DNA of 64,000 bases from Panagrolaimus kolymaensis (taxonomy: Eukaryota > Nematoda > Chromadorea > Rhabditida > Panagrolaimidae). Position numbers and translations under genes: made by a program. Below, piece by piece: positions 1 through 55,823 of the stretch. The stretch lies in contig JAJQJQ010000056.1 in assembly GCA_028622995.1 (NCBI GenBank), positions 1,178,001 to 1,242,000 on the forward strand, read 5' to 3'. The notes beneath the pieces were generated by a model. The model saw nothing but the letters and a program-made list of their open reading frames with translations, did not search any database and had not been told where the DNA came from. Numbering within the stretch: the stretch's first letter is position 1; each line of letters opens with the position of its first letter.

Positions 1-364
1 TTAACGTATCTTTTGAGACAAAAATAAAAAAATTATGTCGATTTTGAAAAAACCGCTGCCCATCCCTATTTATAAGTACACAAAAAAATGTACATATTTT
101 TTCGGATAAGAAAATTTTATTCAAATTTTTATGACTTTATTTTTAAATTTTTTTTACAGTAATTTTTCTCAAGTTCTCGAAGTTACAACCTTTTTTTGGG
201 TTAAAATTCAGTTAGCTTTTTTTCTTACAAATTTTTAATTTTTATTGTTTCTTTTTACTAACAGAGAGCTTCCATTGATTATTAGTTTAAAAATTTTTTT
301 GATTTTTAACTCTCTCATTTCATGATTTTTAACCCTGTGATTCATTGAATTTTAGGCCAATGAT
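1..364. other. AT-rich leader of the Helitron-like gene
   Basis: No coding sequence is recognisable here. A splice-acceptor-like TTTTAG ends at about 355, 9 nt before the first ATG of the giant gene. The reading frame stays open from that acceptor to the ATG, so this could be a trans-splice site or the acceptor of a further upstream exon. The 5' end of the transposon (expected TC for a Helitron) was not found and may lie outside the window. Confidence 0.5.
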
Positions 365-3300
365 ATGAATATGGAAATTGATGATAATTCTATTGACGCA
401 GTTTTTAAACCACGACTTAATGAAAATGTTGAAGGCATGGAAATTGACGAAAAAATTCCAGCACAATCTTTATTAGGAACCCAAATTAATACTCAAGTAT
501 CTGCGACAGCATCTAATGCTTCTGGTGCATCTGATTTGTTTTCATCCGGTGTTTTTGAAAATATTGATGATCCTATGGCACAAATGAATTATCCTGATGT
601 TGCTATTAATTTTGATGATGAAGAAGACATAAATGTTCTTATGGCAAAAAATGAAAGCCTTCAATTAATAGCAGCTTCCATTGAAGATATTACTTCCACG
701 GTATTAACCCGTGCAGAATTAAATGAAGTCAAAAATAATGAATTTATTAATGATCATGTCATTAGTGTTCAATTATACCGGGAACTTATTCTTGAACACG
801 AAGACAAAGTTTTAATGGTTTTACCAGTGTTTTGGAATAATCCAGAAGCTTTTGAAAATTGGGATGCTGAAAAATTAAATGTTCCTAATCGTCTTCCAAC
901 ATATCCAGTGAAAAGCCCAACATTTGAAGATGCTATCATTCTCATGAACATTGGAAATGGCCATTGGTCATTTGCAGTTTTGAACAAGGCATCCAAAACA
1001 TGCACTCATTATTGCAGTCTCAGATGGAAGCTTTCTGACTACCATGAAAAGCACGTTAAAAGAATATGTTATATGCTTACTGGAGTTGAAATGAATATTG
1101 ATATAGCTCCAACTGATAGTTATTACCGACAAGTTGATGGAGTAAATTGTGGCCCATTGAGTGTTATTCTTCCAAAAAGAATTTTGAATAAAGAAAAATT
1201 AGTTTTTGATATTTCCGTGGTGGATCAATGGCGGCAAATGGTGCATGATTACAATATTGGATTCTTAGAATCACTTCCAATTACTCAACAACTAATTGAA
1301 AATATGGATTTGCTATCAAAAAAATCAAAAATTATTGAACGCTATGAATTATCACTACCTGAAACAAATAATACTTTTGAACAAAATATGAGTGAATCAA
1401 AAATATCTGGAATTCTTGAGGATTCTCAACCAACAGCAATTATTGTTCCTTCTAATGACCAACCTTTTCAAGCTTCTGATTTTGCCAATGTGGATGATCC
1501 AGACCTTCGACTGGGTCTATCAAGAGAAAGTTTAAATAGAATTAAAAATGGTGGATATATTGGGGATGGCACTATTATCAAAGAAATTTATCGTACTGTT
1601 ATTAGAGGGTATGAACATGAAAGATTAATGGTTATGCCTTGCAATTGGGTTTCGAGGTATCCTTTTGATAATTGGAGCAGCAACGCAAAAGACAAATTTC
1701 GCCTTCAAACTTACCCTCAATACAGCTCAACTTTTAAATTTGCAATTATACCTATTCATTTTGGCATTCATTGGACATCAGCTATTTTGGATAAGGAACG
1801 AAAAGAATGCACATATATGGATACATTCAAAAATCCTCCTCCAGCAGATATTTATTTAAAATTAAAACGAATGTGTTCTTATTTATGTGGAGGTAATGAA
1901 TGTGAAATAATATATCCCCCAAGCGACAGTTTTTATCAACAAAGAGATGGTGTTGATTGTGGCGCATTGTGTTGTATTTTAATTCATAGATATTTTACTG
2001 GAGAAGATATGGATTTTACCCGTGATATGGTTTTTGCATGGAGACGACAAAGATATAATTATTATCACCCCATAACACCTTTAGTTGATAAACCATCCAC
2101 TCCAACAAAAACTCAAGATGAAATTGAAATTCTTAGTAATGATAAAGGAAAAGATACTATTACAGAAATTAATAATGTAACTATTTCTAAGCAAGATAAT
2201 TCAAAAGTTAATGAACCTCCACCAAAAAAGATTAAATCAGATTTTTCAATCATTGTTACTGCCCCTGATGTCACGCAAGATTTAACGCTACCAGAAAATA
2301 TGGAAATATCGCAAAATTCTTCTAAAGAAAAAAGCGAACAAGATAAAATCGAAGAAAAACGAAAATATGAACGTGAAAGAAAACGATCCCAACGTAATCG
2401 ATTTAAATCCCCCTCTGTGATAAAGTCTCATGATAAACCAGCAAATAAAGGTTCAAAGTTTCAAGCAGAAGAGACCTTAACTCCAACAAGAAAATCAGTA
2501 AGTTATTTTAAGAAAATTAGATGTATTTAATTTATAAAAAAATTGTTCTATTTTTAGATTCGAAGCACACCCAAAGTTATTAATTTAATTTCGCAACTAA
2601 ATTTAACAGATTATGAATTCCTTGATATTTCAAATCAACCGATTAATAAGTAAGTTATCCTAAAAATATTTAATTTTAATTTACAATTTTATGGTTTTAA
2701 TGAAACTTAAAGAGAAAAAAAGCATTCTAATTAATATTATTTTTAGAATTCGTCAACAATTCCAATCTGCTCTTGAATTGAACAAAGCGACTTGTGGATT
2801 ATCAAAAGCAATTCAAGGGTTATTAAAATTAGCTGAAATGAAAATTGTACTTTCAAATGATGAAATTCAAAATTTCATTAAAATAATCCCTAAAAATATG
2901 ATTGATGGATGGAAAAAAAATTCAAATGAAAGAAAGCAGTTCCTAATTGATCGATTAAAATATCAAAAAAATTTTAATTTAAATAATCACTTGGATCTAA
3001 TTAATGCTTCTACCACCATCAAAAATCAAATTACTCAATATAAGGATTTACAAACAGAAGATAAAGGATTAACAATCTTGGGATTCCTTATGGATGCTAT
3101 TAGTAATTTAGACCCTAAACTTTTAACTGCACAAAGAATTACTGAATTTATGGAAGAAATCCTTAAATCTATGAATATGCTAAATGACATTCAAGAAGTG
3201 ATGTGGAAAGCTTTCATGCCAATAAAAGAAAGTTTGCGATGTATACTTCACCAAAAAATAATAGGTTCTCGTGGAACTGAAGATTATTTTAATCGATCAA

Positions 3301-6300
3301 TTCTTGGTTTTTCTTTCCATTCAATAAAAAGAAAGTGTCAATCAGAAGATATTCCGCTTATTACCGAAATTTTTGATGAAGTTTATCAAAATTTTATGAA
3401 TAAAGATGAAACTGGAAATTACAAATTTATTCATCCAGGTCGCGCAACAACCTTAAAATCTGAAAAAAGTAAGTATATGTGGAATTATTCGTTTGAACCA
3501 AAGATACAAAAAGATGATGCTGAAAATAATTCTAAAATTAATGAAACATCAACACTGATGGATGATACGCAAGATGAAATTTCTCAGCAAGTTGAAAATG
3601 AAGAAGCTTTAAAATATTTAAAAAATGCGATAGCTGAAGAAAATAATGTCAATTTTAATAATCCTAAGGCAAATATGGCAGCTGATGTTTATTTTGCATG
3701 TACCCGAGCCAAAATGTGCAATGAAGAATGTCCACAGGTTAATCCAGGGCTTGGTGAAGGATTATATTACGCAATTAAACGAATTACTCAATGTACAAAA
3801 TATGATATAATTCCAACAATGGCAAAATTTGAGTTAAATTGGTTTTCAATTATAAATAATCATGCGCCATGTTTTCAAGGATTACGAACTTTACAAAGGA
3901 TACTTCGAAATATTCATGGAATTATTGGGATAATCGATAAATGTCAAAAATGCTTAGCAGAATGTAATTATTCATTACTTTTAAAGCTTTCTAGTGGAAA
4001 TATAATTCCAAAAGAACAAAGACGATTATTATGGCTTAACACTTTAACTCCTTCTCCTTTACAAACCGAACAAGTAGCGGAAAAGGAATATGGAAAGTTG
4101 TTAAAAAAATTTGAAGAGGAAGATAAAGATGTTTTTGAAAAATCATGCCAAATTTGTCAACGACTGACAACACAATCGAAATATAGCGAATTATCAGTGA
4201 ATCATCCTATTTTTCAAGCTTTTGAAGATTTAGTTTTGGAAGTACCAAGAATGGATGAAAATAATTTACAAGTATTTGGTATTTGTTCACATTGTAAAAC
4301 ATATATGAATAATGGAAAAATTCCGCTTTATGCAACAGCTAATGGTTTAAATGTTGATGAGATGCCAGAAGAATTTAGTGATATGAATGCAATGGAATGG
4401 GCTTTGATAAAACTGAAACGACCTTTAATGTCTTTTACAAATGTTCAACCTCTATCTGGATATAATGCTAACCCTCTCCCTCATATGCATGGTACCATGG
4501 TGCATATCATGAACCCAATTGAAGAAAATGTTTCATATCTTGCTAATACATTACCTTCACTACCAAATGCTCTAGGCATAGTTATTAATGTACGGTGGAA
4601 CCCTGAAAAACCATTTGGAAAGTTTGTTAGATTAAACAAAATGTTAAATTGTTTAAAATGGTTAGAAGTAAATAATCGACATTATCATGGCATAACTATT
4701 GATCCACAATTTCGTTTTACTAATGCATCCGTATTCTTTGAAAAAGAAGCAACCCAAGAACAACTTAATAATTTAATTGATTTATCAAATGCTCCAGAAA
4801 AACCGACTTTAATTATCGATGAAACATTAGCGCATATTGATAAAAATGCAAATATTGGAGGTACAACGCTTCAAAATTATCTTCTACAAAAAATGAACCC
4901 AGATAATCTTTCAAAGTTTAATGAAAAAGAAATGGATGAAGAATGTTTCCCCGAAATTCATTTAACCGGTTGTTTTGGTATTGATTGGCCAAGGCAACAA
5001 AAACTTAGAAATGCTGATTACATGACTGCTAGAGCTTTACATTCATCAAGAGCTTTTGCCTTAAAAGAATATATTGCATGGTGTAAATCAAGAAAAGATG
5101 TCACCGCAATTCATGGACCGGTTTCTGTTCAATTTCGTGAAATTAAAAACCGAGTGGAAACATCTGATTTATTGAGATGCCTGAATTCAGGAAATTATGA
5201 TGTTTTGGTGGATGCAGTTTCAACCACACCTTTTAAATCGTTAATAGGTTCTTATGATCATACCATAAACATGAGACATAAATTAACGACAATGGTTGAG
5301 TGAGTTTAAATTTCTATTTAAAAAAATAAAAGAAAATAATTTATAATTTTTTTATAGCTATTTTGGACCTTTTCAAATTTATTTGACTTTGAATCCAGCT
5401 GAATGGGATTGGGAAAATTTGAAGCATGCCATACGATGCATTTATCAAATCCCAAATGAACAAGCAATAGATGTAGCTCATTGGAATAAAAAAGATCCCT
5501 ACATATTTGCTCATTACTTCCATAATAGATTGCTGAAGTTTCTAAGAAATGTTATCTTAGTTGCTGATGGACCTTTTGGTGAAATCATACACGATTTCCG
5601 ACATTATGAATGGCAAGGCCGAGGAACTTCGCATTGTCATATGGTTTTATGGTCGAATGAACATACAACTTTTGATGGAACCAATGAAGCAGAAGTAATT
5701 AAGAAAATTGATTCAACAATTACTGTTCGAATACCCGACCCCGTTAAAGAACCAAAAGGACATCGATTAGTAACGAAAAATCAAGTTCATCGTTGTACAG
5801 GTAAAAAAAAAAGAATACAAAAAATAAAAATAATTCTTTTCCTTTTTTCAGAATCTTGTATTAAACCTCGAAAAATTAAGAGTGTTACTCATCAAATGTG
5901 TCGATATGGATTTCCACATGAGCCATCACCTTACACTTATTTAAATCAAAAAGATGGAAAATTTGAAATTCAACCTGGTAAAAATATCAAAGAATATTTT
6001 TTGAGAAGATCCGATGAAGAAATTAACATTAATGCGTACAACATGGCAGTTATATTAGGGTGGCAAGGCAATGTGGATATTCAAATGATCTGTTCATCAG
6101 ATATGAATGATATTATAAATTATATTACATCTTATATTTCTAAACAAGAAACAGCCAGAAAAAATCAACAAGAATTTTCTGAAATGCTCGCTGCAGGTTT
6201 AACTGCTGGAATAATGATGTCAGTGGCTTTTCGATTCCTTAATGCTCGTTTGATAGGATTAATTGAAGTTGCCCATCATATTCTTCAACAACCAACTTAT

Positions 6301-9300
6301 CAAGCATCTTGTGGCGGTGTATTCCTTCCAGCGGATCCTGCAGATAAACGAAGAAAACGAGTAAACCCATGTATTAAATTAGGAGAAGCTACAGCAGAAA
6401 ATGTTTATCAAGCAACGTTAATTAATAACCATTATCCTGATCGGCCAAAAGAATTACATCCATTTTCTTTATTTAATATAAAAACAATGTTTGATATTGA
6501 AATTAAAAGAAATAACCGCCTAAAAAATATCAATGTCGACGATTTATTAGATATGGATGATAATTTTTCTATTAATGATTATCTCGATCAAGAGAGTCAA
6601 AATGAATTTTCTGGAGAAGAAGAAGAAACTCAAATTTTAAAAGATAAACGTTTAGCAATTGATAAAAATTCAACTGCTCCAATAGGAACTCAAGAACCTA
6701 AAGAAGCTGAGATTACATGTCACAAAAATAATGATGAAGTAATAATGAATTCAATTGATGGAAAAAATCATGATTCATTAATGGAAATCGAAATGGAAAA
6801 TGCATTAATGCCATCACAAGATAATTTTAAACAACCATCAATGAATATTTTTCAACAAATTCATAATGAAAATCTAGTTGATCAAATTCGCATATTTCGA
6901 AATCTTTATGAAAATAACCGCACAAGTGTAAGTCAAGACGTTGCTGATGAACATGTTGATTTTATGATTCGTTGTATTTATGAATCTGTGACTAATTCGA
7001 ATGTAGCAGTTTATCTTCCTACAGGTTTTTATGCGGCATATCAACCCAATTTTCTTCTCAATTATAACATAAAGAAAACAACAAAAATACTTTTTCCCTT
7101 TGTTGTTGGGTACCATTGGTGTATGTTTGTGTATGATATTAATCAAAATAAAATTCATCATATTGATCCATTTGGTAATCAAAAATCTTTTTCAAATCTG
7201 CATGACCAAATTATGAGAAAATTAATTTTAAATATTAATGGTCTAATTCCAAATCCTACGAAATCTTATCCTAAATTTAACGCTTGTTTTGTTCAAAAAA
7301 ATGGTGATACAATTAATTGTGGGGCCTACATAATTGCTTATTGCGAATATTTGATAAGAGGTTTAAAATTGGAAGATCAAAGAAACTTTAATATTTTAAA
7401 TTATAAATTACGAATGATTCAAATTTTTAATGAAATAATGGAAACTAGTGCAATTCCGATGGAAATTTTAAATAATTTATCAGATGTTATTAATCAAGTT
7501 CAAAATAATTCATCCACAAATCAACCAAAATTGCCATCTCAATCAAAAGTTGAATCTCAAGCAAAAGTTGATAAAAACGAAACAGAAGTTTTAAAACACA
7601 AACTTTACACTCAACAAAATTATCAACCCACAAATAAAGAACTTCAAAAGCAAAATGTGTATGGCGGCAATCCATTTTTAAAAAGCAATTATCATGTTTT
7701 TAATACAGAATCACCTGTATTTTGCCATAACAAAATGACAGAAAAAGTTATTCCTATTAATAATTCACATGTCAAATTTGTAAAACGAAGAAAGCCTGTT
7801 GTGGTTAGATTTTATATTCCAATAATAAATGAAGAAGATGAAATTACAATGGAAAATTTCTACCATCGTCTTTGTTTAATATTCAAACCATGGGTAAATG
7901 AAGCTGATATTTCACCCCTAAATGGTAGTTATGCAAATTTGTGGAATGATTATTTTACAAACTTGAGAGAAAATAATCCTGAAGCTGCAGCCGATATTGA
8001 TCGACTTATAATGTCAAAGCAAAAACGATTAAAGGTTCAATTGGAAAATGCAACCAATCGACGAATGTATGAGCTATTAGAAGAACAAGATTGTGATATT
8101 GATCCTGTTGATGATCAAGAATTTCAAAAAATTGTTGTTCCATTGTCAACTACAAAAGTAGATAAAAAGAAATTGGATGAAGATATAGCCAATTTAAATA
8201 AAAAGCAAAAAAGTATTTTTGATAATACAACAACAAAAATCAAACAACAAGAAGAATGGAAACCTGAATCAAAAACAGCTCAACCAGATCAAATTCTTGA
8301 ATATATTAGTGGCCTTGCTGGAACGGGGAAATCCACATTGGTTCATACTTTAGCAACTAATATTATTTACCAATATCAAATTGCTGGTTCCAATTATGAT
8401 AGTCCACCAGTAATTTTAGCAGCTCCTACAGCTCTTGCTGCAATTCTTATTGGTGGAAATACTATCCATCATACTCTTGGAATTACTCGAGAAAGTGTGA
8501 ATCACAAGCCGATGAGCAAATCAACCGCTTCAAAACTAAATTTATTATTTGCAAAATGTAAACTTCTTATTATCGATGAAGTGAGCATGGTTGGAAGTTC
8601 TTTATTAGCCCGCATCAGTCTTCGTTTACAAGAAATAACAGGTTGTGATAAAAAACCATTTGGTGGTATCAATGTTATTTTATTAGGCGATTTATGTCAA
8701 CTCCCGCCAGTATTAGATGGACAAGTGTTTACGGAAATCACTCAAAAACAAGCAGACCGATATTTTAATCATATGGGTGCTGGTATCAACCTTTGGAGAT
8801 ACTTCAATTATAATGAGCTTGAAGAAAACATGCGGCAAAAAGATGACCTTAAATATGCACAAATACTTGAAAATTTCCGAATTGGATGTGCAACTGAAGA
8901 AAATTATAAGGAACTTGAAGATAAAATAATTCCACAAGCAAAAATATCTCCAATGACGATGGATGATATGGCAAAATATTATATTGATTTACTTAAACGT
9001 GATCCAAAAGCCTTAGCTTTATTTCCAAGAAAACTTGATGGAGCTGCTTTTAATAATGCTGTAATGAATCGTCTTGGTTTACAAGTCATTACTATAACAG
9101 CTGATGATAGCAATCCAAAATTAAAAACGTATGTTTAAATTTATAAAAAAACATATTTTAAAAACCACTAAACTTTTTAATTTTTTAGCGCCGATAATCA
9201 ATCAAAACCTTGGCAAAAGAAAGAAGGTTCAAAGAAATTCGATTTTACAACAAAATTAAAAAACGATTTAGCAAAAAATAATGATATTCAAAAACTTGAT

Positions 9301-10994
9301 GAAAATAAAGAGAAATCTAAAGAAAATGTGGGAGAAATTCCAATCGAAGAAGATGATGAAAAAACTTTAAGAAAACAACTTGGAAGTAAAACAGCAGCAT
9401 TGCCAGAAATTTTAAAAGTTGCAATTGGTTGTCGTGTAATGTTAAGAAATAATATTGATGTTGCTCGTGGATTAGTTAATGGGGCTATTGGATATTTAAG
9501 AACTATAATATCTACTGATCGACCCCATATGGATGATAAAAACCGTGTTCATGAAGATACTTTAAACATTGAATTCGACCATCTTCCTGGCCAATTAATT
9601 CCAATTTCAAGAGAAACAGCTGTATACCACACAGACAAAACTAATTCGAAGCAAGTCACCCGTCGTCAATTTCCTATCCAAGTTGCATATGCTTGTACAA
9701 TTCATAAAGCTCAAGGATGCACATGTAATAATGTTTTGTTATTCTTGAAAGATTGTTTTGCAGGAGGACAAGCTTATGTGGCATTATCAAGAGTAAAAAA
9801 TCTCAAGGGCCTTCATCTTGCTTATTTTGAAAGAAGATGTATGATGGTGAATAAAGAAGCTGTTAAAGAATACAATAGGCTTCGAACATTAAATAAAATG
9901 CCATTATTACCTCAACCAACTTCAAATATTCCAAAAACAACGTCAAATATCCAACCGCCTCCTCCAGCAAAAGAACTATCAAAAGCCGTTGCAGCTCCAC
10001 ATTCAATCCCTCCAAAACCAGCAATGGGAACTATTCATCAAGATCATGAAGGAGAAATTTTAAAATTGTCATTGGTTAATGGTGATAGATTTTTATCATT
10101 TGCAAACTCCTCTTTGCAAATTTTGAGGCAAATACCGGAATTTATGGAATTCCTAAAGAAACATCCAAATGATAATGAAATTCTCACCGAATTATCAAGT
10201 ATTTATTTGGCTTTGGGAACAAATCGAACACCAGATGCTACAAAATTAAAGCAACTTTTTACAACAGAGCAAGAAGAAGCTGATCCATGGGATTTTATTC
10301 AATGGATTTTTGATAATTGTAATGATGATTTTAAAAATCAATTTTTATTCAACATTAGCGATTATTACACATGTGATAATTGTAAAGAGGTAATTGGAGC
10401 TTAACAAAAACAAAATAAAACTTTAAAAAAACAAAATAATAATGTTTTAGAAAACCAGACATGATATTCCAAATTCCATGGTCCTTGAGTTACCATTAGT
10501 CAAAGAAAGCGCAAAGCCAAAAACATTTAGTGAAATTTTAGAATTATTAAAGCATCGACAAAATAACATTCATTGTCGAAAATGTAATATACTTGGATTA
10601 CACAATGTTGAAAGAACTATTTCGTGGCCAACAATTAATAAACAGCGCTATCTTTTTGTTAAACTTGAAAGATACAATGCAAATAATGGAATAGTTAATG
10701 AGGCAAAAATTCAAGGTCATAAAGCACATCAACAAAGCATTCAAAGTTTGTAAAATATCATTTTTTTAAATAATAATTCCCTTTTCAGATAAAAAATGGA
10801 GTCTAATCGGAGCTATACAACAACCATTTGGAAGTAAAAACACAGGAAGTTTTACAGCATGGTTACGAGATAATGTTGAAAAAAAAGTGACATGGGAAAA
10901 CATAAATGATGAATGTTCGAAAAAATACAGCAAAATAACTGATAATTTACATAGGATTTACCTATTATTGTATAACCAATTCACCACGAAATAA
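365..10994 (+). CDS. Giant Helitron-like Rep/helicase with three Ulp1 domains and a USP-like domain
   Basis: Rolling-circle transposon replicase, expected to nick and unwind DNA in the nucleus. Joined exons: 365-2497, 2558-2649, 2747-5299, 5358-5800, 5852-9128, 9189-10389, 10451-10715, 10789-10994, about 3,389 aa with no stop. Order: Ulp1/C48-like domain 1 (aa ~112-280; His ~199, Cys ~261), domain 2 (~390-560; His ~468, Asp ~485, Cys ~532), a CxxC...CxxC DUF6570-like segment (~1209-1260), Helitron-like N region and Rep with GRGTSHCH (~1679) and two-Tyr YITSYISK (~1830), Ulp1-like domain 3 (His ~2160, Asp ~2178, Cys ~2229), PIF1 helicase (Walker A GLAGTGKST ~2561, Walker B LLIIDE ~2644, GDLCQLPPV, IHKAQG, YVALSR ~3028), and a USP-like fold (~3123-3389) without its catalytic Cys and His. 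Rep and helicase are conserved, so identity is firm; the roles of the protease-like domains are inferred. The start could lie further upstream. Confidence 0.93.
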
Positions 10995-11325: not shown

Positions 11326-11700
11326 TAAGTAATAATTAACTTCAGGTAATGATATTTTTACTCAAAATCAAAATATTTAAATTTCTATAGCGGCATACAT
11401 CTATTTTTATGTGGTTTTTTTTAAAGTTAGCTTACTCATAGAGGTAATTGAGGGTGGAGAAAACGATTTTTATATCCAAAATATAGGGTAAAATTGCTGC
11501 ATCGCTCAGCGGGACATTGTTACCAGTGCTGATTTTTCGGTTTGATGAAATTACTATATCTAACCCTCTATTTTTTTTACAGATTCGTAAATGCGACGAA
11601 AAATTGACCCTAGAGAGCCCTCTAATATCAACAAAATTGCGAGAAATAAAAAAAATCATAAATTTCGGTTAACAGATCGGGCGTTCTCATTCCTAAAACA

Positions 11701-11731
11701 GCCGCACCCCTCGCTTCGCTCGGGGTGCGGC
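11701..11731. repeat. GC-rich perfect hairpin (10-bp stem)
   Basis: Left arm gccgcacccc (11701-11710) and right arm ggggtgcggc (11722-11731) pair perfectly around an 11-nt loop. The surroundings are very AT-rich. Helitrons carry a GC-rich hairpin close to the 3' terminus, so this may mark the end of the element, although CTRR is not seen directly after it. It could equally belong to a small unrelated repeat. Confidence 0.6.
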
Positions 11732-11797
11732 GGGATTTTCAAAAAATAAAAATAAAATAAAAGACAAATTTATTTTTTTCATTTTGTTTATTTTTAG

Positions 11798-17345: not shown

Positions 17346-18582
17346 TTATACATACATTTAAATTAACCCGCAACAAAATTATGTATGTATATATACAACA
17401 ATAACAAACAAAAAAGTTAGTGAAGAAAGAAAGAAATGTATTACAAAAAAAAATGAAAGACTTTTTCTTTTTATTCAAGGAAGTCAGAAGTTTTTTTGGA
17501 TCAAAATAAATGTGCATGCACAAGTATTCGTTTCAAGATTTATTCCATTCAGAAAAAAAAATATTTTTGATCTAACCTCGATTTACCTCAAAAAAAAGTT
17601 TTTTCAATAACTGCGCTTGAGTTAAATGACATGAGTTGTTCATATCAAAGACAATTCCGATTTGGCTAACATAACAAGCTTTGTTCCTTCATTAAATTTT
17701 TATATGCAATAGTTTTAATTTTTTTTTTGCCTTTAACATCTAAGGTTAATTGAAAATTTTCATGTTTTTTTTTGCTGAAATTGTCACTCAATCATTTCTC
17801 ATTTTTCTTTGTCCAATAAAAAAGTTTTTGGTCTTTAATTTTTCGATTTTTCAGAGCACGAGGTGAGGTACACGTGATTCCCTTTTTTGTTGCTGCAAAT
17901 CTTTACAATTTTTCCTTTTTTTTTGTAATTTTTTTTGAAACAGCATCATTTTCTTCTTCAAAGTTTTAGTTACGTCATATAAAAAATCTTCAATAGATAA
18001 TCCTCACATCTCGGACGTATAACCTTTTGCCGATCTTCAAGCGTCAACCATTCTCACGGAAAATCTTTTTCTCATTTTTTCTTTTTCATCCAGACAAAAT
18101 TTTTTTTTAACTCAAATCCTCTATCTTTTCCCGGACGCACACGCCATTATATAACTACTAACTGAACAAAACAATCGCACTTTTTTTCTATCACATTTCT
18201 TTCTTCTTTTTTTTCATCTTCTTCATCTTTTTGACGACTATGTCCCAAGCATAAGCCCAGCAACAGGGGAAGACCAAAAAACATGCGCATATTTTTGTTT
18301 CTAAAAAGTTTTTGGTTGAAAAAAAAACCAGCGTTCGTCTAGTGCTAAATTTTTTTGCGCAAAAATTTTAATAAATCCTATTGGGATTTTTTAAATTTCT
18401 GTCTATTTTTATGACTAAATTTTTAGTTTCTTTTATTAACAAATATTTTTTACAGTTTTTTTCGTGTTCGATTATCTTTCATGTATCCTTTTTGAATTTT
18501 CAAACTTTGATTTTATTTATCTAAGTTTAAAATTTTGCATAATTTCTAGGTATCTCCCAGTTTGTCTTTAGCCTCCAGCAAA
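17346..18582. other. Divergent upstream region of the Dcp1-like and OGDH genes
   Basis: About 1.2 kb between divergent start codons, with T-rich and A-rich tracts and no convincing ORF. It must contain both promoters. TTTCTAG and CTCCCAG acceptor-like sites at about 18549-18560 precede the OGDH start and could be cis or trans acceptors. Confidence 0.6.
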
Positions 18583-21500
18583 ATGATGCGGGCTTCAGGC
18601 ATCATCCGGGCACATGTTTGTCATGTAACTCGTCGTCGGGCATTTTCATTAGCTCCAATTCGACGTACTCCAGTTTCGGCTGCTTCCCGAAGTCTTATGG
18701 CTGAAGGATTTATGAATGGTTCATCCAGTGTATATATCGAACAGATGTATGAAAGCTGGCGGAGTGATCCTAATACGGTTCATAAAAGTTGGGATGCATA
18801 TTTTCGTAATGTTGAAGCCGGGGCAGCCCCAGGTGAAGCCTTTCAAGCACCTCCAAGTTTATCATCTTCTCGAAGTCAAACTGGGCTGGTTCCTGCTCAA
18901 CAAAAAAGTAGCTCTGTTTCATCTACGGCCGATATTTCACGCGCCATTCAAGATCATTTAAAAATTCAATTACTTATTCGTAGTTATCAAGTAAGCTTCA
19001 TTCCTATTTATTTTATATATATAAATTTATATTCAGACTCGTGGTCACAATATCGCTGATCTTGATCCCCTTGGTATTAATAGTGCTGATCTTGATGATA
19101 CTATTCCTCGAGAATTAGAACTTGAATTTTATGGATTCACTGAAAAAGATCTCGATCGAGAATTTGTTCTTCCTCCAACTACTTTCATCGGTGGAGATCG
19201 AACAAATTTAACCCTTCGTGAAATTATTAATCGCTTAAAAAATATTTACTGTTCACACACCGGTGTTGAATATATGCATCTTACAAATTTTGAACAACAA
19301 GAATGGATTCGTAAAAACTTTGAACAACCCAGCGTCACCGAATTAACTCAACTTCAAAAAAAAGTTTTATTCAAACGTTTGATTCGTTCAACCAAATTTG
19401 AAGAATTCTTAGCTAAAAAATGGCCAAGTGAAAAACGTTTTGGTTTGGAAGGTTGTGAAGTCTTAATTCCCGCAATGAAACAAGTTATTGATCGATCTTC
19501 CACTTTGGGAGTGGATTCAGTTGTTATTGGCATGCCACATCGTGGTCGACTTAATGTTCTTGCAAACGTTTGTCGACAACCTTTGGAAACTATTCTTTCA
19601 CAATTCAGTACCCTCGAAGCTGCTGATGAAGGTTCAGGAGATGTTAAATATCATTTGGGTGTTTGTATTGAGCGATTTAATCGTGAATCTCAACGCAATA
19701 TCAAAATTGCGGTCGTAGCTAATCCCTCGCATCTCGAAGCCGTAGATCCGGTAGTACAAGGAAAAGTTAGAGCTGAAGCTTTTTATGGTGGAGATACTAA
19801 ATGTGATCGAAATCTTGCGGTTATGTTACATGGTGATGCAGCATTCGCAGGTCAAGGAGTAGTTATGGAAACTTTCAATCTTGATGATTTGCCTTCATAT
19901 TCTATACATGGTGCTATTCATATTGTTGTAAACAATCAAATTGGATTTACCACTGATCCTCGATTCTCACGTTCTTCACCATATTGTACTGATGTGGGTC
20001 GAGTAGTTGGTTGCCCAATTTTCCATGTAAATGTTGATGACCCAGAAGCTGTTATGCATGTTTGTACTGTAGCAGCAGATTGGCGTAAAACTTTCAAAAA
20101 GGATGTCATTATCGATTTAGTATGTTATCGTCGCCAAGGACACAATGAACTCGATGAACCTATGTTTACTCAACCTTTGATGTATCAAAGAATTAAAAAA
20201 ACTAAATCTCTTTTGGAAAAATATCAAACTAAAATTATTGGTGAAGGTGTTGCAGATGAAAAATATATTAAAGTTTGTTCATATATTATTTTTTCAAAAG
20301 TTTATTTTAAAATAACAAAATTTTAGGATGAACTTGCAAAATATGGTCAAATTTTAGAAGATGCATATGAAGCCGCTCAAAAGATTACTCATGTTCGTAA
20401 TCGAGATTGGCTTGATAGTCCTTGGGATGATTTCTTTAAAAATCGAAATCCCCATGCTTTTGTTCCAACTGGAATTGAAAGAAAAGAATTGGAATCAATT
20501 ATTGATAAATTCTCTTCTGTTCCTGAAGGCTTTAATCTTCATAAAGGCCTTGATCGTACATTAAAAGGTCGAAAACAAATGTTCAGCGATAATACTCTTG
20601 ATTGGGCTTGCGGGGAAGCCCTTGCATTTGGATCTCTCCTTAAAGAAGGCATTCATGTTAGATTATCTGGACAAGATGTGGAGCGTGGTACATTCTCTCA
20701 TCGTCATCATGTTCTCCATGATCAAAAAATTGATCAAAAAGTTTATAATCAATTAAATGATTTATCTGAAAATCAAGCTGAATATACTGTATGCAATTCA
20801 TCTCTAAGTGAATATGCAGTTCTTGGATTTGAGTTAGGCTTTTCTATGGTTAATCCAAATTCATTAGTTATTTGGGAAGCTCAATTTGGTGATTTTTCTA
20901 ATACTGCTCAATGTATTATTGATCAATTTATTTCATCTGGTCAATCTAAATGGATTCGACAAAGTGGTCTTGTTATGCTTTTGCCCCATGGTTATGAAGG
21001 TATGGGACCTGAACATAGTAGTGCCAGGCCAGAACGTTTCTTACAAATGTGTAATGAAGATGACACCATTGATGTTAATGTATGTTTCTTATATATAATT
21101 TTAGACTATAGGAATCATATTATCTTTTTTTAGCAAGTAACATTAGATGAAACATTTGCTGCCCAACAATTAAATGATACCAATTGGATTGTTGCAAATT
21201 GTACAACTCCCGCAAATTTGTTCCATCTTCTTCGCCGACAAGTTTTATTGCCTTTCCGTAAACCATGCATTGTTATGACTCCCAAATCTCTATTACGTCA
21301 TCCAGCAGCTCGATCACCAGTTGAAGAATTTATAACCGATACAAATTTCAAACGAGTTATTTTTGAAGAAGGTCCAGCAAGAGATAATGGAAAAAATGTT
21401 GAACGTCTTGTCTTTTGTACTGGTATGGTTTTTAATTAGGTGACTAATCAAAAAAGTAACAAGAATACTTTTTTAGGAAAAGTTTATTATGATTTACTTG

Positions 21501-31342: not shown

Positions 31343-33556
31343 TTACAATCTACCCGAAATAACACCTGGATTATTAAAACAAGCTTCACAAAATTTTGGA
31401 TTCTTTTTCGATTGATGTTTAGAGCAAATTACTCCAAGACAAAGTTGGCAGTGATAATTACTTTTGATTGTACAATATTTACAAGTTCCTCCTTTTAGTT
31501 CCCTTGCTGAACTTCTTGTTTGTCGTTGATCAAGAGGAATTGGTTGAACATTTTCCATCGCCGAAGATTTCCCATGGCAATTGACACAGATTGTAATCAA
31601 ATGTTCATTACAAATAGGGGCGTTGCATACTTCACAATTGTTATAATCTCGACCTATTTTTGTACAAACTTTACATCTATTTTGAGTCGATTTTTGGTGT
31701 CCAAGAACTTTTTGTCGAATACTAAAACGAGAAAATTAATTTCTAAATCAAAATCAAATAATAATTTACTCTTCTTGTAATCCTTCAATAGTTTCATATT
31801 TTTTTGTCAACCAGAAATTTCCAGATTCTTTGATTTCTTTTTGATCTTTCATAAGTTGATCAGATAAGTTGTTCAAAAACTCTCTGCGGTTTGCACTATT
31901 GTTAAAAAGGACTGATGCATTTAGAGCTGCAGTATCAATGGTATGCATGAAAACTCGCACAGGCCACCGATTGACTGGAGGAGAAAAAGAATAATTGACA
32001 ACCATTTCATCATGCATATCAACTCCACATTTCATTTTATTGTACTCGTGAATAATAAGGGGTTTTTCATTGCGGGCTTTTTGAATCGAATGATGTTTCG
32101 TTGAATACAAAAAAACTTGTTTAGTTGCTTTAGATTGGAAGCTAAGTAAAGTTTCTTTTTCTCGAAAGACATATTTAACATCCGAAACCTACAAAATATG
32201 GTTTATTTATGAATTTATAAAAAGTAAGGTAAACATACTTCAGATTTTTCTCTTACAAAATCATCTGGAATGCCATGACGATTTTTGCGAACTGTCCCTA
32301 AGAGATGAGTTTTAGAGTTCCATAAAATATTTCCTAATTGAGGTGATGTAAAAAAATTATCGGTGACAATTGTTCTTCCAGTGGATAAATAATTGGATGC
32401 TAATTTGAGAACAATCTAAAAGATTTGTTTTTTATATTTAGAAAGAAATAATTTTTACTTACTCCTTCTCCAAAAGGGCCATCAATTCCATGGTTATTTT
32501 TACCCAGATAAACTTCGCTCTTACACAAAAACTTTGTTTTTGGGTCGACTATGTTGAAAATCTTGATACCATATTTTGCTGCTTTTGATGGGATAAACAT
32601 TCGAAAATTACATCTTCCGCGGAAATGAACCAAAGTTTCATCGACTGTCAAATACTCTCCTGGTTTGTAATATTCTTCGAGATTTCTATTGAAAATGTCA
32701 TAAACAGCACGGAGGTGAACAAATTTATCTTCATAACTCCCATCATCATTTTTCTTTCGGTCGGGTTTGAAGTCAAAACGTAGGCATCTCATCAAAAATT
32801 TATATCTATCCTTCGAAAAAACTAAGTGGGCATCTGAAAACTCTAATTTATTACAAAAAAAAATGCGAATACCCTTACCAAGAGAAGAAGATTTTTTTGT
32901 TGAAAAAATTTCATCAACGGAAGAATTATTATAATTCATAATTCCTAGTTTCAACCACAAGCCAATAAGAGCACGAATTTCTGTTGGATTTGTATTTTTT
33001 ACATCATGGGTGTTTTTACTTTCTCTTTTGAATTTACGTGCAATTTTTTGTAAACCGAAATTTGTTCCTTGAACAATTCTAAAGATAACAAGGGAGGTGA
33101 AAAATTTCAATTAAAAAATTGCTTACAAATTAATTATCCCATCAGAAATCATTGCATCAAAAGCGTCCTTTTCTGAAGCAAAGGTACTTGATGATTCGGG
33201 AATTTCAAAAGTAAAATCATTTTCCACTTGTTCAGGATGCTGAATAGTCCAAGAATTATTATAGTTTCTTTTTCGGGCTGGAACAATGTTTGTTGTTTGA
33301 AGAAAACGACGATTGTCTTCCTCATTAAATTCATTAGCGATAAATTCTTCGTCTTCTTGTTCCTCAACATAATCTTCATCATCAGAAGTATCAAAATCTT
33401 TCTACATAATAAAAGTTTTCAAAAACAAAAGAAAAAAAATAAACAAAAAAATACCTCGCTATCATATTCAGGACGAATTCTAGAAGCAGAAGGTTCAAAA
33501 GGGTTTTCTTCTTCATCACTTTGACGACTTGAATCAAAACCTCTTTTTTCAGTCAT
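31343..33556 (-). CDS. piggyBac transposase
   Basis: DDD transposase that excises and inserts the element at TTAA. Exons 33556-33455, 33401-33127, 33078-32463, 32415-32239, 32188-31770 and 31721-31343 give 655 aa. An acidic N-terminus is followed by the DDE_Tnp_1_7 core with catalytic Asp in TVDETLVHFRGR (~270), VTDNFFTS (~346) and GVDMHDE (~445), close to the positions known for the classical insect enzyme. The C-terminus is a Cys/His-rich domain (CKVCTK, CEVCNAPIC, CKYC, CQLCLGVICSKHQ, CEAC), as in other piggyBac proteins, where it binds terminal DNA. Five short introns have normal GT-AG borders, and the reading frame is fully open, so the protein is probably functional. Confidence 0.96.
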
Positions 33557-53080: not shown

Positions 53081-55823
53081 TTATGCTTTTGTTGAAATTG
53101 GTGGAGGGAAATAATCGAAGCCATCTTGGGGTAAAGGTTTATTTGGTGGAAGTTCTTCTGCTGGCGGAGGACAACATTCACAATCTGGTGTTGCTGCAGG
53201 TTGGGGTTCTTCCCATCGAAGTTCTTTACCATAAGTCATGAGTAAATCCAAAATAACGCCATTTGTCCATCCAAACCCTTCTTGAAGTTCATATTCACCA
53301 CCACCTCCTGAACTTTTATTGCATTGTGTGGCAACATTATATTTTTCAAACATTCTTCCACCACTGTAAAGCCACATGAAATAATTTTTTCTTATCCATT
53401 TTTCAGCTATTATTTTTGCAATATCATTTAATCCTACTTTTCTTAACCCTTGAATAATTACCCAAGTTGTTGGAGCCCATGCATTTGGAAAATCCCATTG
53501 TTGGCCGGAAGCAACTAATGAAGTTGGAATACCTCCTGGAAAAGTTAAAACTCCAGCTTTTTCAAGATATGTGCTTATTTTTTGTGGATCGAAATCTTCA
53601 TGAACACATTCAGCAAAAAGTGGGAAGAAGTTGGTATCGAAATAAGTGCTAGCATGTTTATTCGATGCTAAATCATAATCAAACCAACAACCCATTTCTT
53701 CATTCCAAAATATTTGGTGGATGGCTTTTCTCATAAGTGTAAATTGCTCATGACTTTTTGATGCAGCTTCAGGCATTCCAAGAAGATTATAAAATTTTGC
53801 AAAAGTTCTTAAATTGCCGCAAATAATGGAATTAAGATCGATGGGCAATATTGAACTTGTTCGAGTTGAACCCATTTTACCTGCTTGCGGTCCATCAGTA
53901 GTGAACCAGCGGGCACTAAAATCTCTTCCACTTTCTGCTGCAGCCATAATATCTCCCCAAAGACGAAGCTTTTCAGGTGCATCATGGATATATTCAGCAC
54001 ATTCGACATCTTCTCGATAACTTTCAGGTCGTGGACCACCTGCTACAACGTGATAACGGAAAAGATGGGCCTTCCAATCATCTTTATGAATCCTGCGATT
54101 ATTTGTAAAAAATTCCATTTCTTTTTCTAACCATGTCATGGAACGTCGAACAAATTCCAAATCTCCCGTTTGTTTATAATATGCATCCACACACCATGTT
54201 AATAATGGAGGTTGCGATCGATTTAAATAATATATTCGATTTCCATTTGGTACATAGCCATAATTTTCTATTAAATGTCCCATATTTTCAATCATTCCTC
54301 GAACAGTTGAAAACATTTCAGATGCAAGTAAGCCTTTGATGGTAAAGAATGAATCCCAATAATACATTTCTCTAAATCGACCACCAGGAACGATAAATGG
54401 ATTTGGCACAGGTAAGAGAGAATATTGTTGCGGATTGGATTGAACTTTTTCTGAAACTCTTCGACACAAAGTTGGCCATTTTTTATGTAAATCTTGAGCC
54501 CAAAGTCTATACGTTTCATCTTCAATGGTTGTAAATGATTTTATCTAAAATAAACTTTTTTTAATAGGTGTGCTTATTAATCTAAATCAACCAACTTCAA
54601 GTTTATAATCTAATGGTTGAAAATCTTCTAATTCTCCACCAGGTTGCTCAAAGTGATCTTGGATGAATAAATTTAATGCCACTGGATCAACTTGGCCATT
54701 TTTTGATTCATGAATACAAACATTCCAATCTTTTAATGTTGTTTCTAAAAATAAATTTATTGTTTTGTTTTTGCTTTCTGTTACTTTTGATCCTAACAAA
54801 ATTATTAGAAAAATTATTTTTGCACTTTAGATAAAAGCTGCTTTATAAATTTCATAGGCTTTGAAAAGAAACAAAGTACAGCAAAGATCAATAAAAAAAG
54901 GAATAAACAAGGGATGGGAAAGAAAGAGATAGTACAAAACGAGTGCAATCGAATTAAATTGCTGACGCAACTTTTCCTTTGATGGACTGGAAAGAAACCT
55001 GATAAGCAAGCACCTAAGCTGCTTGCACCGGAAATAAAGAGCTTTTTTTGAATCACACTTTTTTTCATCGTTAATTTATTCCTAAATTTTTTTGGTACTC
55101 ACCTGCATCAGTTTTTAATGGCATATCAACGAAATGTTTACAATCAACAAAAAGTCGTGAAGTTTGAACGGCAGCTAGCAAAGTTCCATGACAATATATT
55201 TCATTTCTCATGGCATTTAATTTACCCTGTCTGATCAATGCAGGATCCTCTTCGAGTGGGTCTTTAACAGGTTCAATCGGGGCTGTAGCTGTATGAAGCG
55301 ATCTAACAGCTAAAAAAAGAAAGAAAATTAGAAAAAACTTCTCGCAAAAAAGGCAAAAACTTGGTTAAAAAAACTAACAAATAAATGAAGTTGAATTTCC
55401 AGAAGGGCAATAATGTCGATATGAACGAGCCCATTTAAAAATTTCTGAAGGATTTGAAAGTGCAATTAAATTTGTTGTTATTGAATTTTCAATACTGATC
55501 CCTCTTGAATTTGGTTCTCCTACTTTTCTAAATGTCAAAGATGGCGTTGCTTCAGTACTTTTATGTTTTCGTGGCTTCGGAGATGGAACATTTTCGCTTT
55601 TATTATTTACCATCATCATATTTTGGTGGAGCAGTAAAGGTTGTTGCTGATCCAAAGCAGCTAAACTTGTGCTTGGTGCTTGAATTTTAGGTTCATTCTG
55701 CTTTTCTTGGGTAAAAGAAATTGATGAAATAATTCCAGGATATTTAGTTCTAATGCGATCTACGGTTTGAGATCTCCTATTAATTAAATGCTGCACACAT
55801 CGTGGATTGATTTGTCTAACCAT
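53081..55823 (-). CDS. Trehalase (GH37)
   Basis: Hydrolyses trehalose to two glucose units. Exons 55823-55379, 55309-55103, 54792-54596 and 54544-53081 give 770 aa. The GH37 body shows signature 1 PGGRFREMYYWDSFFT and signature 2 QWDFPNAWAP, plus ESGRDFSARWF, containing the presumed catalytic Asp (usual form ESGWDFSSRW, so Trp is replaced by Arg), and GGGGEYELQEGFGWTNGV. The first exon encodes a ~150-aa Ser/Pro-rich extension with no clear signal peptide (MVRQINPRCVQHL), so a cytosolic or tail-anchored form is possible. The C-terminal tail is Pro-rich with CECCPPP. Nematodes usually have several trehalase genes. Confidence 0.95.

Follow-up and report, generated by a model that had tools for sequence, protein, structure and literature searches.

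Rolling-circle transposons that fuse a Rep-helicase replicase (RepHel) to ubiquitin-pathway cysteine proteases have been described in several forms. Helitrons with VTD and OTU deubiquitinase domains, one with two VTD domains, are reported together with inactive VTD relatives in insects (as described in PMC9741609), and an account of OTU Helentrons and Helitron2 is given in PMC4067079. The subject here is a Helitron-type element of ~22.5 kb in the nematode Panagrolaimus kolymaensis, whose long gene enters a 64,000-nucleotide stretch (assembly GCA_028622995.1, contig JAJQJQ010000056.1, positions 1,178,001 to 1,242,000 of the forward strand; the window). Like the elements described in those accounts, it joins RepHel to proteases of this kind, sometimes two of them there, with inactive relatives; unlike them, it carries Ulp1-type C48 domains (residue order His-Asp-Gln-Cys), a USP (ubiquitin-specific protease) fold that looks dead and a ubiquitin-like domain ending in GG, and the exons scanned showed no apurinic/apyrimidinic (AP) endonuclease. 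VTD and OTU deubiquitinase Helitrons are already known, and the version with C48 and a GG-ending ubiquitin-like domain is new; in the available portions of the open-access literature, no description of a Helitron with a C48 or ubiquitin-like domain was found.

Two other groups of proteins invite comparison. Mutator (KIU/VANDAL) and Ginger1 are likewise DNA transposons with an Ulp1 domain, but they are not RepHel elements, and the available passages of the two accounts mention no ubiquitin-like fusion (PMC2836005; PMC13317346). The CRN/CR proteins, as outlined in PMC5289972, have ubiquitin-like N-termini, in some cases Ulp1-like peptidase C-termini, and ties to Helitron-rich regions; they are not RepHel proteins, however, and the likeness is one of description, with no claim of membership (PMC5289972). 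In what follows, unprefixed coordinates count from the first base of the window (contig C55 1178001, C55 being the contig named above), L009 denotes the 8 kb to its left, and features of the gene and element lie on the plus strand unless stated otherwise.

A predicted ubiquitin-like head on a Helitron-type gene

The initial annotation proposed a single long Helitron-type gene, and its eight exons, spanning 365-10994, do join into one stop-free frame of 3,389 codons plus a stop. It missed, as far as sequence can tell, the upstream start of the gene with its GG-ending ubiquitin-like domain, and the ~22.5-kb element as a whole. Four further exons in the same direction lie in L009 (C55 1174678-1175631, 1175697-1176405, 1176460-1176624 and 1176721-1176983) and join in phase 0 to an acceptor at 355; with these added, the total reaches 4,089 codons without stops. 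The fourth of them is a ubiquitin-family domain by Pfam (34 bits; cut-off 25.4), is likewise matched by single ubiquitin chains in the PDB, and ends LQAGGG just ahead of the splice junction. Used as a query against the genome, this domain gave six matches (all 70 candidates scored). The best four, at the C55 locus and on contigs C42, C46 and C93, coincide with the four loci at which the C48 exon finds its best matches; at the C55 locus and its three closest relatives, the ubiquitin-like domain stands directly 5' of that exon. In all four copies compared, the donor (AAA, cut, then GTTAGTTT) and the acceptor (cut directly behind GAATTTTAG) are the same and in phase 0. The GG is also kept in all four, and the residues after it differ between two lineages (QAGG-GSNKATNK and QAGG-SNKVTNK; QGGG-CLKEACK and QGGG-CLKEADK).

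The window opens within the intron that would join the two parts, holding its last portion (1..355, acceptor ttttag at 350-355, phase 0). The exon with the tandem Ulp1-like pair C48-1 and C48-2 runs from 356 to 2497, its start having been placed at 365 initially, and is followed by a short exon (2558..2649), an exon with the Helitron N-terminal region, CxxC motifs and DUF6570 (2747..5299), the Rep exon with Helitron_like_N (5358..5800), and an exon holding the remainder of Rep, C48-3 and the PIF1 helicase (5852..9128). The C-terminal helicase part shares an exon with the N-half of the USP fold, where Ser occupies the Cys position (9189..10389); a further USP-fold exon with a CxxC motif (10451..10715, or ending at 10745) precedes the last exon, which contains the USP His-box region (TGSFTAW, His replaced) and the stop codon (10789..10994). 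The choice between the ends at 10715 and 10745 is uncertain by sequence: an alternative donor at 10746 in the last intron would give 3,399 codons, and the exon end is left ambiguous because its ten extra residues, GHKAHQQSIQ, resemble an in-frame GHKAHHQSIL in copy C42. The GC content at third codon positions is 0.16-0.25 in every exon of the gene model. Within the intron before the C48 exon lies a 634-base insertion (L009 7435-8000 and window 1-68, or C55 1177435-1178068) with inverted ends GGGATGGGCA/TGCCCATCCC and a 10-base direct repeat TTTATAAGTA, which is absent from copy C42.

The replicase has the combination that defines Helitrons, an HUH and two-tyrosine Rep joined to a Pif1-type helicase. 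The HUH motif (HCH, 5632..5640), the two-tyrosine (Y2) motif YITSYISK (6121..6144) and the helicase Walker A motif GLAGTGKS (8311..8334) are all intact, and Pfam scores are 61 bits for DUF6570, 56.4 for Helitron_like_N, 84.9 for PIF1 and 24.2 for Pif1_2B_dom. The families for which a profile search had been suggested (Peptidase_C48, Helitron_like_N, PIF1, UCH and DUF6570) were each matched above cut-off. No Pfam family of the C-terminal AP endonuclease that marks Helentrons appeared in the exons scanned. A protein-database search with exon 5 gave four matches out of 2998 candidates, the best being a Helitron-like protein of 1,246 residues (28% identity over 35% of the query, E 1e-27) and the other three bacterial helicase-type proteins or unnamed; with exon 1 there was no match among 7998 scored, and a viral_contigs scan with exon 3 gave none.

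Protease-like domains and their apparent constraint

The best-supported protease domain is C48-2 (1511..2080), which scores 45.7 bits (Pfam Peptidase_C48 cut-off 20.7) and has the His, Asp, Gln and Cys residues, kept in all four copies. A model built from three window sequences (pLDDT, the predicted local distance difference test, 62) has SENP3, SENP1, SENP2 and Ulp1 as its top fold matches (best E 2e-6, TM score 0.4-0.6); for the two N-terminal domains together, AlphaFold2 run on a single sequence reached a pLDDT of 35, and that model was not used. C48-3, between Rep and helicase (6886..7488), has the same four residues by alignment and scores 36.7 bits as a separate piece, going unreported when the entire exon is scanned. 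Both domains resemble the SENP/Ulp1 SUMO proteases (PF02902) in family and residues, and C48-2 also in its model match, but they sit within a transposon protein. C48-1 (680..1288) keeps His, Gln and Cys, has a Cys (THYCSL) at the position of the catalytic Asp and scores 17.6 bits, under the cut-off. With 38% identity to C48-2 over 185 residues (E 2e-37), it is clearly a tandem duplicate of that domain by alignment. Pfam and the identity of the tandem copies bear out the proposed placement of C48 domains at two places, a pair at the N-terminus and one between Rep and helicase; the description of all three as SUMO-protease-like holds for C48-2 and C48-3, and C48-1 is not their equivalent. The exchange of Asp for Cys in C48-1 is found in all four close copies, in six of six copies of a second Helitron family (L011), and in L031 and L033-L035, with the catalytic Asp retained at this position in L041-L043.

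The C-terminus, initially read as deubiquitinase-like, retains the fold and not the active site. Exon 6 alone gave 14.0 bits and a shorter piece 17.2, both under the cut-off, and exons 6-8 joined matched UCH at 28.9 bits (cut-off 23.9) and UCH_1 at 31.9 bits (cut-off 22.2). When the catalytic boxes were aligned by eye to the canonical motifs, the Cys box read SFANSSLQ in C55 and C42, with Ser for the catalytic Cys, and the His box read TGSFTAW and IGNFYAW, with Ser or Asn for His. An active deubiquitinase was rejected on these replacements in both copies compared, and the USP fold looks catalytically dead.

The ratio of non-synonymous to synonymous change (dN/dS) was estimated pairwise by the Nei-Gojobori method, with four sequences, or two in the case of the USP fold, and the values are rough. 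Between lineages (C55 or C42 versus C93 or C46), C48-1 came out at 0.12-0.16, C48-2 at 0.19-0.23 and the ubiquitin-like domain at 0.20-0.36. Values were higher elsewhere: 0.40-0.55 in the first 100 residues, 1.2-1.6 in the inter-C48 linker and 0.96-1.3 in the tail beyond the pair. Between C55 and C42, the ratio was 0.21 for the helicase part and 0.09 for the N-half of the USP fold, the latter from only 16 changes (5 replacement, 11 silent). C48-1 and the USP fold look constrained on these estimates despite their altered catalytic sites (dN/dS 0.09-0.16), and the domain values give signs of the selection on the frame that had been suggested.

Extent and ends of the element

The unoccupied site is seen in haplotypes C2 and C8, which are related to this one. 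C2:7808001-7809200 aligns with C55 as far as 1167199 and resumes from 1189735, and C8 matches C2 without a break. The inserted DNA amounts to ~22.5 kb, acquired in one event or in nested events, has its 3' limit at window 11735, and lies between A and T with no target duplication. The DNA to its left ends ...TTA, that to its right starts TTTTC, and the empty site in C2 reads GATGGATA^TTTTC. The transposon 3' end (11380..11735) recurs at 39 other places among those scored, a 381-base query having given 40 matches including the window (best 40 of 281 candidates) that end at query positions 356-371; the initial annotation had called for such a search for copies with shared ends. At 11702..11730 stand a subterminal hairpin, CCGCACCCCTCGCTTCGCTCGGGGTGCGG, and then the terminus CGGGA. 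Both are present in all 12 plus-strand ends read out of those 39, and the hairpin in all 14 ends read when C42 and the window are included, with T as the next base in 12 of the 14. The right flank of C42 differs from that of C55, and C42 is therefore a separate insertion.

Canonical Helitrons begin with TC and end with CTRR. This element ends in CGGGA, and its first bases, (A)TTAGTGCAC, lie at the border of a 1.08-kb unit; since the canonical termini are absent, it is called Helitron-type with non-canonical ends. It resembles Helitron2, as portrayed in PMC4067079, in that no endonuclease was found and palindromic sequence occurs at both ends, but the asymmetrical terminal inverted repeats of Helitron2 were not found, the best stretch common to the two ends being 11 bases. 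The 1.08-kb unit at the 5' edge (C55 1167197-1168280, L063 and beyond) has inverted repeats of ~289 bases and also adjoins the C42 and C49 copies and, on C1, a different Helitron; one of its arms recurs at no fewer than 25 further places at 73-74% (best 40 of 279 candidates). Inside the element lie reverse-strand fragments of AAA-ATPase and innexin genes (L009 1-1415 and 1922-4136), which are captured from genes; innexins are a family of invertebrates. The AAA-ATPase piece is also found near the C42 copy and near the different Helitron on C1. C17, C9 and C2:4.83M were ruled out as an empty site for the left flank, as they match the innexin fragment within the element.

Relatives in the genome and neighbouring features

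C48-like domains are common in this genome and are carried by several Helitron families, one of them also with a USP-like domain; the domain set, taken as unusual at first, thus shares its accessory domains with other families. The C48 exon as query gave at least 101 matches (best 63 of 134 candidates scored), 35 of which cover residues 85-242; among the matches listed, 12 loci have a 2,290-residue open frame that includes the helicase match. Out of ten Helitron neighbourhoods, L011 and L013 match the C48 region by tblastn, and Pfam names C48 in L013 and not in the whole L011 frame; a protein-database search with the C48 region of L011 gave no match among 240. L013 is a different Helitron whose C48 domains score 46.8 bits; beyond an in-frame stop (8670-8672) it matches UCH at 25.6 bits, and by eye the Cys and His boxes of this match seem intact. 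Positions 1647-9899 of L013 hold two N-terminal C48 domains, the second degenerate by eye, with the USP-like C-terminal sequence past the stop. In the Helitron-like family of L033-L035, open frames of 2,257-2,290 pair one full-triad C48 with one Asp-to-Cys C48, and identical match scores at many loci hint at recent activity. On C49 (113368-116834), the 5' inverted-repeat unit stands close to a helicase/USP exon of 94% identity, possibly an internally deleted copy. Elsewhere in the window are oxoglutarate-dehydrogenase-like exons (18562-21133), a DDE_Tnp_1_7 transposase fragment (32403-33110) and a trehalase gene (53084-54469).

Proposed mechanism and alternatives

The domains and motifs, the splice sites and frame at the junction in four copies, the domain versus linker dN/dS, the A^T insertion and the common 3' end together make up an anatomy that is established at the level of sequence. 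The reading preferred here, for which the chances appear about even, is of a rolling-circle transposon encoding a ~4,090-residue polyprotein, in which active C48 domains would cut after the GG and dead domains would bind. The order of its parts would be ubiquitin-like-GG, C48-1, C48-2, DUF6570, HUH/Y2 Rep, C48-3, PIF1 and USP fold. C48-2, C48-3 or both would cut after the GG, in cis or in trans, and free the ubiquitin-like domain and the protease-Rep part. The released domain may be conjugated or serve as a free competitor; C48-2 and C48-3 may also strip tags of the SUMO or ubiquitin-like kind, whether the tagged protein is the replicase or a host factor of repair or chromatin, with C48-1 and the dead USP acting as binding modules, not enzymes. 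Transposition itself would follow what is established for the Helitron family, with Rep nicking and the helicase unwinding. A more tentative extension is a transposon-borne modifier system, in which host enzymes would conjugate the GG-released head, and the dead USP and the Asp-to-Cys C48 would read it, so that the element's own replication complexes are tagged or shielded.

Several observations weigh against the polyprotein. The splicing of the 1,372-base intron that joins the ubiquitin-like exon to the C48 exon is a prediction. The ubiquitin-like domain and C48 are paired at four loci only, most C48 matches lie away from any ubiquitin-like match, and the remaining two of the six ubiquitin-like matches (C7 and C1) have stops and adjoin no listed C48 match. 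A first upstream region of ubiquitin-like appearance (L009 5697-5930) has no statistical support and was dropped, being unsupported by Pfam, PDB sequences and the comparison with C42. A close relative of C48-3 occurs only in copy C42 (45 matches; all 77 candidates scored), and among the best 104 of 388 candidates, C55, C49 and C42 alone match exon 6 over its full length, its USP half being found as three short pieces at other places. The signal of constraint is less clear for C55 versus C42 alone (C48-1 0.35, 17 changes; C48-2 0.47, 12 changes), and for the same pair the linker before the USP fold has a dN/dS of 0.30.

The main rival, which seems possible though the less expected outcome, is that one Helitron holds two adjacent genes, for a GG-tailed ubiquitin-like protein and for a separate C48-Rep-helicase, with maturation in trans, as when Ulp1 matures SUMO. 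If left unspliced, the ubiquitin-like frame meets a stop 14 codons past the junction; a Met (MEID) ~28 codons into the C48 exon, kept in all four copies, could start a separate protein; and the intervening stretch is long, at 1,372 bases, 634 of them the insertion missing in C42. Against two genes stand the donor and acceptor retained in phase 0 in every copy compared, and the lack of an ATG in C93 and C46 at the junction where the C48 exon begins. That the accessory domains are captured pieces of host genes with no role in transposition is unlikely: Helitrons capture genes, as this one has done with its innexin and AAA-ATPase fragments, exon 1 is strongly diverged between C55 and C42 (24% identity over 194 residues), and the C93 and C46 matches lack both C48-3 and the USP fold, but dN/dS is lower in the domains than in the linkers and C48-like domains recur across Helitron families, including the 12 loci with long open frames. 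Least probable is a domesticated, Helitron-derived host gene that is now immobile, to which the few full-length relatives and the constrained domains would be suited; against it, the HUH, Y2 and helicase motifs are intact, the site is empty in C2 and C8, the 3' flank of C42 is different, and the 3' end is found at 39 other places.

Implications

The element bears on the question of why Helitrons take up proteases of the ubiquitin pathway. A GG-ending ubiquitin-like domain joined to such proteases would be a candidate substrate within the same gene, and the idea of a protease that matures or manages the transposon's own modifier is therefore directly testable. The two constrained-looking domains with altered catalytic sites may, in addition, represent a route by which proteases of this kind become binding-only readers of modifiers.

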